Positions 3,152-54,482 of a stretch of 54,482 nucleotides of DNA are shown piece by piece; within the stretch, counting starts at the first letter, position 1; each line of letters opens with the position of its first letter. A program made the position numbers and the translations under genes. The stretch is from positions 1-54,482 of the forward strand of contig MIAR01000008.1 of NCBI GenBank assembly GCA_001829185.1, given 5' to 3'. The notes under the pieces are model-generated. The model was not told where the DNA came from and ran no database searches. It saw nothing but the letters and a program-made list of their open reading frames with translations. The DNA comes from Spirochaetes bacterium GWB1_60_80 (lineage in GTDB: Bacteria > Spirochaetota > Spirochaetia > Treponematales > UBA12059).

Positions 3152-4456
3152 TCAGCGTTGGCGCGGCAAGGCGGCCACGGCAGCGAATATGGTGCGGTAC
3201 AACTCGTCGATATCCTCAAGCTCAACGCTGGAAAAGGCGACGCGCAGCCAGCGTTCCTGTAAGGAAATGACGCCGACGCCATAGTCATCGAGCAGCCTGA
3301 GGCGCAAGGCCTCGGCCGAGAAGCCATCGCAGAGAAAGCACATGAAGTAACCGGAATTGAAGGGCAAGGCGACTAGGCCTTTCGGCGCCGGATTGGCAGC
3401 CAGGAAGGCCTTGACGCGGCGGTAGCGGGATTCCAACAGCCCGGCGAATTGTTCCTTCTGTTGGTGAAAAGACGGATTCTGCATGGCCTTGAGCAGGATG
3501 TACTGGGTGGGCGCCGCCGGGCTGGAGACGCTGGAGCGGATAACGCCCATCAGCTTCTTGACCAAGGCCCCGTACTGGTGCTCGTCGAGTCCGTGACCCG
3601 AGAAGGTGACGAAGCCACCGCGAAAGCCCCAGACGTAGTCTTCCTTGGTGGAGCCATCCACCTTGGCCGCCACGAGCCTCGGGTGCAGGCCGGCCAGGCG
3701 GGCGAAGATCGATTCGCGCAGGTTGGCTTCCTCGTATTGCAGGCCGAAATAGGCGTCATCGGCGATAATCAGGACGTCGTTGCCGGCATCGGCGATGCGC
3801 AGCACGGCCGCCACCATGGCGTCAGCCTCCACCCGGCTGGGGGTGTAGCCAGTAGGGTTGTTCGGGTAGTTGAGGATGATGACCACGCGCTGGTGGGTAG
3901 CCGCGGCCGCCAGGGCGGTGCTTTCCAGGCCGGCGATATTGTAGCCGCCCTGGGCGTCGAAAAACGGATACTGCTTGAGCTTGCCGCCGCGCCGCTCTTC
4001 GATAACCAGCCGATAATTAGGCCACATCATGTCCGGAACCACCACCGCGTCGCCGGGGCTGACGAACATGTCCGCCAGGTAGGAGATACCGGCGGTCAGG
4101 CCAGGTACGACCACCGGCAGCGAACAGTGCTTGTCGTGCAGGCTGGGATTCTTGCGGATCAGTTCCTTGCGCCACAACTCGCGGAAGGCGGCCACGCCGG
4201 CGGTTGGTCCATAAGCCACGGCTTCCTTGGGCGTCAGGCCGGGCAGTTGCTCCTGGACGGCATCCAGAATCATAGGCTGGTCATGGTGGTAGGCCATACC
4301 TACCGTGGCATTGAATTTATGGGCGCGCTCCGTGGCCTCGGCGCTCTGAGTCAGGATTCCTTTGGGAAAATACATGCGTTGGCCAATGTCCGAAAGCAGG
4401 CGCAAGGCACAAGTCCCGGACAAACTACGGTTTAATTCTTCGGCCAGAATATTCAT
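3152..4456 (-). CDS. PLP-dependent class I/II aminotransferase
   Basis: 434 residues of fold-type I aminotransferase. Visible are AYGPTAGVAAFRELW, the cofactor-binding VVVPGLTAGISYLADMFVSPGD, VIILNYPNNPTGYTPS, the Asp/Tyr of LIIADDAYFGL and the lysine segment KVDGSTKEDYVWGFRGGF, whose Lys is the expected Schiff-base residue. The C-terminus has the small-domain Arg region (RWLRVAFSSVE). The substrate cannot be told from sequence; the large insert around the lysine loop sets it apart from AspC/AlaA. A GGAGG site precedes the ATG. Its promoter is annotated separately, and rlpA follows closely. Confidence 0.88.
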   Translation of the reverse strand: MNILAEELNRSLSGTCALRLLSDIGQRMYFPKGILTQSAEATERAHKFNATVGMAYHHDQPMILDAVQEQLPGLTPKEAVAYGPTAGVAAFRELWRKELIRKNPSLHDKHCSLPVVVPGLTAGISYLADMFVSPGDAVVVPDMMWPNYRLVIEERRGGKLKQYPFFDAQGGYNIAGLESTALAAAATHQRVVIILNYPNNPTGYTPSRVEADAMVAAVLRIADAGNDVLIIADDAYFGLQYEEANLRESIFARLAGLHPRLVAAKVDGSTKEDYVWGFRGGFVTFSGHGLDEHQYGALVKKLMGVIRSSVSSPAAPTQYILLKAMQNPSFHQQKEQFAGLLESRYRRVKAFLAANPAPKGLVALPFNSGYFMCFLCDGFSAEALRLRLLDDYGVGVISLQERWLRVAFSSVELEDIDELYRTIFAAVAALPRQR

Positions 4457-21940: not shown

Positions 21941-22011
21941 ATTCAGGGGGCGCCAGCCAAAGGTCTGTCGCCTCCCCAGAAAAGATTTCGGGCCATACAA
22001 GGGCGATTAGG

Positions 22012-22288
22012 TTGTTCATGGAGCTTGCAGACGCGGGGCCTGGCGCTTTCAAGCCTGGCCAGGCTTGGACGCGCCACCCACGCAGGTGCGGTTAATTGTA
22101 CAAGCTAGCGCTTGGATTGGGGTGTATCACATCGTGCTCCAGCCAGGGTCTGTCCCCACCTACCCCAGGCGCTACCACCGCGTCGAGGTCGGCTTCCACG
22201 GCGCTGGAATAGCCAAACCCCACCGCTCGCTTATCCACGAACACCGCAACCGCTCTTGGACGCACCAGGCCCCGCGTCTGCAATCTTC
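22012..22288 (+). repeat. structured repeat with inverted ends (copy R1)
   Basis: Begins TTGTTCATGGAG and carries GCAGACGCGGGGCCTGGCGC (22028-22046), whose near-exact reverse complement recurs at 22262-22283, giving terminal inverted repeats about 215 bases apart. Inside is a perfect 18-bp palindrome CAAGCCTGG/CCAGGCTTG (22050-22067) enclosed by GGCGC/GCGCC. A related copy at 54057-54205 keeps the same stem with a compensating base-pair change. No credible gene lies in 21941-22457; this repeat and the element at 22290-22424 fill it. Confidence 0.75.
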
Positions 22289-22289
22289 C

Positions 22290-22424
22290 TAGCAGGGTGT
22301 TGAAAAACGCGAATGCGGCTTTTCAACACTTCAAAAGCCGGTACAATTACGCAGCATAGCGCAAGCTATGCGAGGAATTGTTAAGGTTGTTGAGAAAGCA
22401 ACCGGCTTTTTCAACAACCTGCTA
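22290..22424 (-). mobile_element. 135-bp three-hairpin element, copy A
   Basis: Near-identical, in opposite orientation, to 29126-29260. Ends are TAGCAGG...CCTGCTA with imperfect terminal inverted repeats TAGCAGG(G/T)TGTTGAAAAA. Each end folds into its own hairpin and a third hairpin GCATAGC-GCAA-GCTATGC lies in the middle. It has no coding capacity. It resembles a MITE or REPIN-type non-autonomous element mobilised in trans. Copy A sits directly after repeat R1. Confidence 0.85.
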
Positions 22425-22457
22425 GACAAGCCTCCCGCCGTGGGCGTCAACCTTACT

Positions 22458-28429: not shown

Positions 28430-31058
28430 CTAGGACTGGCGGTTCAGCGCTGCCACATCCACAATATGCACGCAGGGGGCGCCGAAATCAAGCTGAACGG
28501 TACCCAGAATCAGGAAGACGATATTATTCTCAAGGATCGGCATGATTCGCCCGTAGACTTTAGGAAAAACAACCGTCTCGTAGACGCCGTCGCCGTCCAT
28601 GAACGACTTGAAGCACATGGCGTCGCCTTGCTTGGTCTGGACTTCTTTGCAAGCCGTATCAACGCCCAGCAGGCAAACCTGACGGCCGGCCAAGCGCGGC
28701 AAACCGGCGGATCCCACTGGCGCCGGCCAACGCAAACTAGCGGCCAGCTTCTCCGCCCGCCCTAAAAACAGCGCCGGTAGGCTGACCGAAAGCACTAGCC
28801 CGAGGAAATCCAACTCGTCGCGCAGCCTGATGGCCGGGCTGTAATTGGCGATGCCCGGCGGCGCCTCCCAGCTGACAAACAACTCACCGCCGTCGCCCGC
28901 CTTACGCCGTCGCTGCCACTGATGATACAGCCAGATCAGCTGCGGCCTGGTCTGCCCGCCGCCACCGCCGAGCCCGTCCAGGCTGCCGGATCGGATCAAA
29001 GCCCGGCAATCGTCAAGCGGTGGCCGCACCCGATCCAGAAATTCGATGAAACCGCCAAACGCCCCACCCCGCTGGCGCTGCTCCAGGATGGACTGGCGGG
29101 TAGCGGCCGATAGCCGGCCTGCACCTAGCAGGTTGTTGAAAAAGCCGGTTGCTTTCTCAACAACCTTAACAATTCCTCGCATAGCTTGCGCTATGCTGCG
29201 TAATTGTACCGGCTTTTGAAGTGTTGAAAAGCCGCATCCGCGTTTTTCAACACCCTGCTAGCGCAGGCCGGCGCGTATCGCCGGCTTGTCCGGCGCAGGC
29301 TGTTTTTCCGGCGCAGCCGGTGACGGCAGCGCCGCCACCGCGTAGTCGGCGCCGCCCTGGTTCACGCACGGTGGCAATAATTTATAACCAAGCCGGGCCG
29401 CCTCGTCGACATAGGTCTGCGTGCCGTAGAAGCCGCCGCCATTGTTGATAACCGAGCAGATGAAATAGCCAGGGTACCAGGCCTTCATCCAAGCCAGCCG
29501 GTACGAGACCAGGGCATACGACGCCGAGTGCGCCTTGCAGAACGAATAGCCGGCGAACGACTCCATCATATCCCACAGGGCGGCGACGGCTTCGCTGCCC
29601 AAGCCGTGCCTGGCGCAGCCGTTGGCAAACCGCCGGTACAGGTCGCGAACTTGTCGGCGCCGCGCTTCTTGGCCAGGATCTTGCGCAGGCGGTCGGCCGC
29701 CGCGGCGTCGAAACCCGCTACCGCCATGGCCACCCGGGCCACGTCCTCCTGGTACACCATGATGCCAAGCGTCTCGCGCAGCATCGCGCCGAGCTCCGGC
29801 GACAAGGGCGGCCGGCCGGATGATCGAGCTGGCGATTACCAGGTGGCCATAGTCGCCGGTACGCATTTTCTGCAGCAGTTGGCGGGTGGCCGGCGACTCA
29901 ATGTAGAAAATGCCGATGGTGCGGCCCGATTCGATCAGGCGGCGCGGCACCGCCTCGTCGATAGGATTGGCTGGCCCAGTCCAGCGGACCGCTGACATAG
30001 GCGCCGCGCTCCCGGCCGGGGCCTGCCGCCGGCGGGCTTGCGCCCGACCCGCGCCCGCAGGTGCGTGGACAGAGCGACACGATGTCGCGCACCACCAGGA
30101 AGTAGGCGGCAAAGCCCTTGTCGTTGATGATACGCAACTCGCGCTCCAGGCGCGCTTGGGCCGCCGGCTGCCTACTCGGATCATACCGGCGCGGCAGCTG
30201 CTCCAGGCAGGCCTGCTTGAGCCGGGCGGCGCTGTCGGCGTCGCTCAAGCCCTGGTAAAGCGGGAAGACCGGCCGGTCCGACAGGAACGAGGCGGCCGAC
30301 ACGCAACTTCCGGCCAGTTCCCGGGCCTTGGCCACCGCCTCCGCCAGGCTGAATACTGGCGGACCACCGCGGCGGCCGGCGGCAGCGACCACTCGGCCAG
30401 GGCATCGACCGGCTGACCGCTACCATCCAGCCGCCTAGCCGCCGCAAAAAGTGCCAACTCACGGAAGGAACTACCAGCCTCCAGAGCCGCGTACCAGGGC
30501 GGCCCGGCCCTCTCCCGCTGACCAGCCACGGCCGCCTCCGCCAAGGCCTGCCACTCCAGATAGCGTTCCAGCGTCGCTCGGTCAGCGCAGGCCACCGACA
30601 GTCCGTCCCAGCCGCCGGCCAGCAAGTCGGCCACCGCATCGTAGGCCGTTGGCGCGGCTGGCCGGGCCGACGGCCTGGTTTGCCTGGTCGCCCTGCCGAC
30701 GCCGCCCAGCCTGCCACAGGCGCTCGTCGTGTGCCATCCGCCCGGCCAGACCGGCCGCCAATAGAGCGCACAGCCGGCTGAAACCCTCACGGTTGCGCGC
30801 CCAGACATACAAGCAGCCGCCGGACGGCAGGGCTAGCCGGGCGCCGGCCAGAGCCTGCAAACCGACCCGCGCCGCCTGGTTGATGAACTCGGGCAGACCA
30901 TACAGGTTCCCCTCGTCCAGCAGGCCAAGGCTGCCGAAGCCGGCCGCCCGCACCTGCTCCGCCAGCCGGGCCAGATCGGGCGAACCGCTCATCAGGGAAA
31001 ACCAGGATTGTCCGGCCAGGAACGGCAGGACCGCGGCCGCGCTCACATCGTCACTCAT
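28430..31058 (-). pseudogene. decayed DnaE-type DNA polymerase III alpha gene
   Basis: Homology runs right to left through several frames. The PHP N-terminus is at 31058-30690 (FSLMSGSPDLARLAEQVRAA, GLLDEGNLYGLPEF). Shifted frames follow: about 30700-30350 (YDAVADLLAGGWDGLSVACA), 30360-30050 (FLSDRPVFPLYQGLSD, AYFLVVRDIVSLCPRTCGRG), 29990-29830 (IGIFYIESPATRQLLQKM), 29805-29640 (MLRETLGIMVYQEDVARVA), and 29640-29260 (ESFAGYSFCKAHSASYALVSYRLAW). After an inserted 135-bp element, an intact C-terminal part from 29125 to 28430 (GRLSAATRQSIL, OB-fold GDGVYETVVFPKVYGR) remains. After CGRG the palm segment with the catalytic Asp residues is absent. At least four frameshifts plus this deletion make a functional polymerase impossible. 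The main replicative DnaE must be elsewhere. Confidence 0.9.
29126..29260 (+). mobile_element. 135-bp three-hairpin element, copy B, inside the dnaE pseudogene
   Basis: Runs TAGCAGGTTGTTG...CACCCTGCTA. Hairpin 1 is 29132-29164 (GTTGTTGA...TCAACAAC), hairpin 2 is 29179-29196 (GCATAGC/GCTATGC), hairpin 3 is 29221-29253 (GTGTTGAAAA...TTTTTCAACAC). Removing exactly these 135 bases rejoins the polymerase reading frame as ...IRAGLR-GAGRLSAATR..., so the insertion boundaries are known and no target duplication is visible. Copy A at 22290-22424 has the same length and the opposite orientation. Confidence 0.9.
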
Positions 31059-53880: not shown

Positions 53881-54056
53881 GATGCCTCCCCGAACCGGAT
53901 GTTGGCTGTCAGCCCGACTACCCGGAGCGAACGTACGAATGGGAGGCAGTCTGCACCGGCGGACGGAAAAAATCAAGCTGCCAAAGGGGGAGCACATCCT
54001 AGTGGGCGGTCCGGCGCTTTGAGCCGCGGGGTAAAACTAATCAACGGCGAGGAGCT

Positions 54057-54205
54057 TGTTCATGGAGGTTGCAGACGCGGGGCCTGGCGCTTTCAAGCAT
54101 GGCTGCGCTTATCGCTTAGCCATGCTTGGTCGCGCCACCCGCGGCGTCGCGGCCACCCTGTATAAGCTAGCGCGGGGTTTGAATGTTTCACGCCGTGGGG
54201 CTATG
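54057..54205 (+). repeat. structured repeat (copy R2)
   Basis: TTGTTCATGGAGGTTGCAGACGCGGGGCCTGGCGCTTTCAAGC matches R1 at 22012; further downstream TAAGCTAGCGC also matches. An 11-bp stem CAAGCATGGCT/AGCCATGCTTG (54094-54104 with 54118-54128) is enclosed by GGCGC/GCGCC, and one stem pair that is C:G in R1 is A:T here. The remaining bases to 54482 hold no gene I can support. Confidence 0.75.
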
Positions 54206-54482
54206 ATGGTGCGGCTCAAAGCGTCGGGCTGGGTGCCCATTAGGCGGTGTCCTTGCACGGAGGGCGGCTCCCCCTCGGCCGGGCTTCCGGCGCCGCCTTT
54301 GGTGTGCTGGTGTGGCGGTCTTGCGAGGCAAGCCCGCCAGTGCTGGGCGTTGGGTGCGGCGCTGGCGATCCCGGCCTGCCCCCACGTTTGGTGGGTAAGC
54401 GCTACCATCACCCCATCAGGCACAGTGCGAAAAGCAGGGTAGACTTCCGGCAGGAGGCCCTGCATGAGAACACCTCAAGAAG

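Follow-up and report, generated by a model that had tools for sequence, protein, structure and literature searches.

The hairpin found in two gene-free places of the 54,482-nucleotide stretch of DNA analysed here (the window) belongs to a new, previously unlisted family of dispersed palindromic repeats, in which both the hairpin and the bulged foot at its base are under selection. Across the copies, the hairpin and the bulged foot are conserved while the sequence of the stem changes in pairs. As to the nature of the copies in the window, R1 (22012) and R2 (about 54057), we hold with about even confidence that they represent a family of small palindromic elements, non-coding and dispersed, in Treponematales, an order of spirochaetes to which the genome appears to belong; the elements would be non-autonomous repeats of the ERIC/RPE kind. 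Genomes are denoted below by G-numbers, G000 being the source genome of the window, G001 its sister species and the others relatives.

Structure and distribution of the repeat

A hairpin common to R1 and R2 had been proposed in the preliminary description, and the within-genome comparison confirmed it, with 48 nt at 96% identity (E=1.9e-15). Its arms occupy 22041-22058 and 22059-22076 in R1, and 54074-54104 and 54118-54148 in R2, where 13 nt separate them. The exchange of a C:G pair in R1 for an A:T pair in R2, also claimed there, can be read directly in the sequence, and both copies indeed lie outside predicted genes. When compared with shuffled sequences, the folding of R2 gave z -6.2 over 409 nt and that of R1 z -3.9, and 0 shuffles were as good in either case.

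R2 represents the complete long form, with a length of about 400 bp (53986-54385, plus strand, as are its parts listed below), and its homology to other copies, at 75-80% identity, spans 53986-54394. In the multiple alignment the copies share their start and end, and their flanks are unrelated. The complete form, about 300-410 bp long, opens with GGGGGAGC[A/G]C and consists of a giant imperfect hairpin closed by GCTCCCCC and, in its 3' part, a smaller hairpin domain followed by a CCCCCAC box. The conserved head of R2, GGGGGAGCAC, is located at 53986-53995, and its partner GCTCCCCC, which closes the giant hairpin and is paired in the MFE structure, at 54267-54274; both GGGGGAGC and GCTCCCCC are invariant in 19 aligned long forms. 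Apart from pairing with the internal GCTCCCCC, the head GGGGGAGC also resembles the CCCCCAC end, imperfectly, in the terminal-inverted-repeat test for a strict MITE. Further paired arms lie outside the core hairpin; the 5' strand of an outer helix, CCGGCGCTTTGAGCCGC at 54011-54027, pairs at 94% with its 3' strand, GCGGCTCAAAGCGTCGG at 54211-54227, and other copies carry alternative paired sequences there. The core hairpin, GACGCGGGGCC[bulge]TGGCGC...GCGCCACCCGCGGCGTC, covers 54073-54148, with the loop at 54105-54117, and was scored by covariance model R2 at 83.7 bits (E=6.6e-16, a value within the searched set, the R2 copy being also in the training set). The terminal TGCCCCCAC box follows the 3' hairpin domain at 54377-54385. 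This box, [T/C][A/G]CCCCCAC or a close variant, is common to copies in other genera wherever the aligned stretch extends that far, and the head, the closing pair and the CCCCCAC end were found again in other genera and in family f4.

The majority of copies are shorter, retaining only the core hairpin and part of the arms; the head is present in 25 of 128 copies, and the head together with its partner in 21 of them. Every copy has a long variable hairpin above a nearly invariant foot, GGG[G/T]CCTG...CACCC, with a 3-base bulge. R1 is a truncated copy (21998-22115, plus strand) that comprises the core hairpin and the inner arms, with a shortened apical stem; model R1 scored it at 83.4 bits at 22007-22105, and model R2 at 49.1 bits at 22029-22087. 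The inverted ends noted earlier at R1 are real (22022-22053 versus 22255-22286, 32 nt, 88% complementary, 201 nt between the arms) and come from a second, inverted and truncated copy that faces R1 at 22190-22288 on the minus strand, for which the covariance-model match is weak (22229-22301 minus, 20.8 bits). Copies arranged head-to-head occur also on contig C43. A small ORF (minus 6068 to 4520 of locus L035, G000:C43:38000-50000) lies there, cassette-like, between two head-to-head hairpin pairs, and looks like a putative isoprenylcysteine methyltransferase. The apical loop in G000 copies is often GCTTATCGC, and this loop is kept in two genera (the G000 copies, and L103 and L115 of G003) though the surrounding stem varies.

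Other repeats were encountered in the window. Beside R1, positions 22289-22425 hold a MITE-like element distinct from the hairpin family, whose inverted ends read CTAGCAGG[G/T]TGTTGAAAAA...TTTTTCAACAACCTGCTAG and a second copy of which is found at 29152-29184; an exact 33-base piece of it recurs in the window and in 21 of the retrieved loci (many of these overlap), often near hairpin copies. The contig ends inside another repeat (54395-54482). Its 88 bases recur without a change at the end of contig C48, and places on C47 and C25 resemble it at 78%; an IS or some other repeat at which the assembly broke is the probable explanation.

Comparison of R1 with the rest of its genome gave about two dozen further matching places, and a search with a covariance model built from 16 own copies (E<=1e-4) detected 30 loci in G000, R1 and R2 included. 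Of the 244 genomes sampled from the order, 34 (about 14%) carried the hairpin, in a patchy manner, and one carrier genome belongs to another order of the same class. About 40 copies each were counted in G008 and G013 (after removal of opposite-strand duplicates), 17 in G193 and 15 in G101. The sister species G001 gave one hit only, as against the 30 loci of G000, which indicates that copy number changes fast. The G000 copies are only 75-80% alike, so that recent movement is not visible. Copies are mostly stable in position: for 29 of the 39 copies of G008, the corresponding locus of G013 or G016 also holds a copy, with short flank matches behind two of these assignments. Scans of public collections with exact 20-mers gave 0 matches in viral contigs and 8 in named genomes (Streptomyces and others), taken as chance.

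With genes predicted by a codon-bias heuristic, 6 of 119 copies, in six genomes, fell inside predicted genes, and 0 of 22 did so in G000. The downstream gene is mostly on the opposite strand (65 versus 36). A protein-coding reading, based on a 128-codon ORF across R2, was rejected, as this ORF has no Pfam match and its frames are broken in other copies; no frame is open throughout all long forms. A resemblance of the ORF in the tail to phage Ash/Icd proteins found no Pfam support, and a plasmid origin was dismissed for want of any match.

Covariation of the stem and near-invariance of the foot

The preliminary description maintained that it is the fold, and not the sequence, that is kept. The part concerning the fold is upheld by covariation, whereas the other part needs correction: sequence is also kept, the foot being nearly invariant while the remaining stem covaries. 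In an alignment of 40 copies from several genera, made with MAFFT on sequence and serving also as the source of the structure, 20 of the 25 pairs displayed changes on both sides, and 93.8% of cells paired; none of 500 shuffles was as good, and slid controls collapsed. The 16 own copies agreed with this result. Under a null in which substitutions were re-dealt along the tree, a procedure that imitates R-scape and is not R-scape itself, 15 of the 25 pairs were significant and none off the structure; for the own copies alone, 4 of 27 pairs were significant. The covariation suspected from R1 and R2 is thus seen in the further copies as well. The closing helix never varies, so that its covariation, and that of the outer arms, lies beyond what the present alignment can judge.

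A comparison of orthologous copies led to the same conclusion. In 30 ortholog pairs from sister species, drawn from the flank-matched set of G008 versus G013/G016, double changes in the stem kept pairing in 128 cases and broke it in 20, and changes affected 16 of 346 foot positions (4.6%) as against 148 of 666 unpaired positions (22%). These double changes, together with the slow evolution of the foot, argue for selection acting on both the fold and the foot.

Relation to known repeats

The nearest kind of known elements is the group of small palindromic repeats comprising ERIC/IRU, RPE and NEMIS/Correia, which are dispersed and intergenic, measure about 100-200 bp and mostly have no known transposase (PMC2229807). 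The elements described here are likewise dispersed, intergenic, multi-copy imperfect palindromes without a gene of their own, and transcripts with long stem-loops would be expected from them; they reach up to 410 bp. Unlike those repeats, the present family is found in Treponematales, is defined by a covarying stem and a bulged foot rather than by sequence, and is kept across an order, often at orthologous loci; the likeness to them is one of description. In its dispersal, patchy number, lack of orientation bias towards the upstream gene and occasional head-to-head arrangement, the family is closer to small dispersed DNA repeats than to mRNA elements. According to the ERIC/RPE-like explanation, a single strand would fold, whether a transcript or displaced DNA, a trans-acting factor would read the bulged foot, and the copies would have spread as a non-autonomous repeat, most of them being by now presumably fixed. 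Against a mobile repeat stand the findings that no transposase or recombinase was linked to the family and that no target-site duplication was seen by eye in the aligned flanks.

REP sequences, mobilised by RAYT, are similar: they too are hairpins between genes that change in a complementary way and sometimes form inverted pairs; the elements studied here are much longer. By definition, the palindrome of a REP carries GT[A/G]G as a head at its 5' foot (PMC2817692), and this head is absent from our consensus. No match to the Y1 transposase (PF01797) was obtained in G000, G031 or G351, all of them carriers, and among 12 rayt loci scanned with the model none was flanked by two copies, one locus having a single copy near. 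RAYT-driven REP were consequently rejected as an identity of the family, there being no such head, no Y1 transposase in G000 and no rayt between two copies in the loci scanned.

A possible folded single strand and competing explanations

Among 97 copies of relatives, the minus strand folds better in 88, by about 5-6 kcal/mol; in G000 neither strand is preferred. The strand-biased folding points to one single strand in the relatives, where such a strand, RNA or ssDNA, may matter, and it is more easily reconciled with a role as single-stranded RNA or ssDNA than with an inert repeat. A tentative proposal, rather unlikely to hold, would be that the copies are order-wide structured single-strand elements (RNA or ssDNA), whose GGG-KCC-TG/CA-CCC bulge is recognised by a putative Treponematales protein, and which possibly share a common source with the inner stems of attC sites.

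It is possible, if on the unlikely side, that the copies constitute a structured non-coding RNA family, in which transcribed hairpins with the bulged foot would bind a protein, or protect or cut transcripts, as proposed for ERIC and NEMIS transcripts. The significant covariation without off-structure pairs, the near-invariant bulge and foot, and the better folding of the minus strand in relatives are in accordance with this proposal, and ERIC and Neisserial repeats do act on mRNA stability (PMC2229807). On the other hand, the orientation of the upstream gene is unbiased (59 on the same strand versus 50 on the opposite one), and G000 lacks a strand preference. Moreover, no bacterial family of Rfam matched the element at the gathering score, nor did any at permissive thresholds; below the gathering score there were chance microRNA-like and viral matches only, plus one nearby tRNA. 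The TD-1 and TD-2 RNA motifs of Treponema denticola are, like the present elements, multi-copy structured motifs of a treponeme; own and relatives' copies, scanned against all Rfam, in a library assumed to include both motifs, gave no match to either.

Improbable, in our opinion, is the idea that the hairpins, as orphan relatives of integron attC sites, are or once were recognised by an integron integrase. The attC sites of Treponematales (as defined in PMC3607928 and PMC8352920) likewise form long, imperfectly paired hairpins in which some bases stay unpaired and the strands are asymmetric, and G000 and several other carriers possess an integron integrase. In the carrier G101, the true attC sites share a short inner box, GGCCTGTC[A]CG...GCGCCA (L266), whose resemblance to the foot of the dispersed hairpins is suggestive only. 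The AAC and GTT triplets of R''/R' are found in the outer arms of many G000 copies, but they are not conserved in G008, G101 or G193. No R''/L''/L'/R' boxes are conserved across the family, whereas the true attC sites of the order have R and L boxes and look different. The copies are dispersed outside cassette arrays, none was found at E<=0.001 in the integrase regions scanned, and there are carriers without an integrase hit, one of them (G034) in a single contig. Integron loci were recorded in the course of this comparison: the integrase gene of G000 is situated at 348-1286 of L144 (G000:C56), with no cassette array in 9 kb by direct-repeat and attC scans; an attC array of a Treponematales integron occupies 138-244, 2446-2552, 3231-3337 and 3816-3929 of L266 (G101:C2); and in G024 and G027 the attC sites agree in length with those reported for T. 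denticola (PMC3607928), which led us to infer that the order is Treponematales.

Paired changes could also arise with no selection on the fold. Quasipalindrome correction, in which hairpin template switching during replication makes one arm a copy of the other, is an established source of mutations; it would mimic covariation, and it predicts paired changes of the kind seen in the orthologs. Such a process should, however, erase the 3-base bulge and other mismatches, whereas nearly every copy throughout the order retains the bulge, a fact that speaks against pure quasipalindrome correction; foot positions, too, change five times less than unpaired ones. We find this explanation hard to credit. 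That the copies are bidirectional transcription terminators or 3'-end stabilisers is very improbable. Many do begin directly past a stop codon, and their neighbouring genes converge more often than they diverge (about 31:16). However, T-runs of at least 5 close to the core occur in only 5 and 2 of 118 copies (on either strand), the copies do not show the intrinsic terminator pattern (GC-rich hairpin and T-run), terminator scans found nothing at the hairpins, and termination does not need a giant hairpin with an invariant bulge.

The dispersed palindromic family adds a deeply conserved, structure-defined repeat to an order for which no such family is described in the literature searched. Because orthologous copies and double changes go together with one invariant bulged foot, its predicted recogniser can be searched for directly. 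If it is the single strand that counts, the family would lend itself as a natural test of what maintains palindromic repeats in bacteria over long periods, and also of whether dispersed hairpins can give rise to cassette recombination sites.
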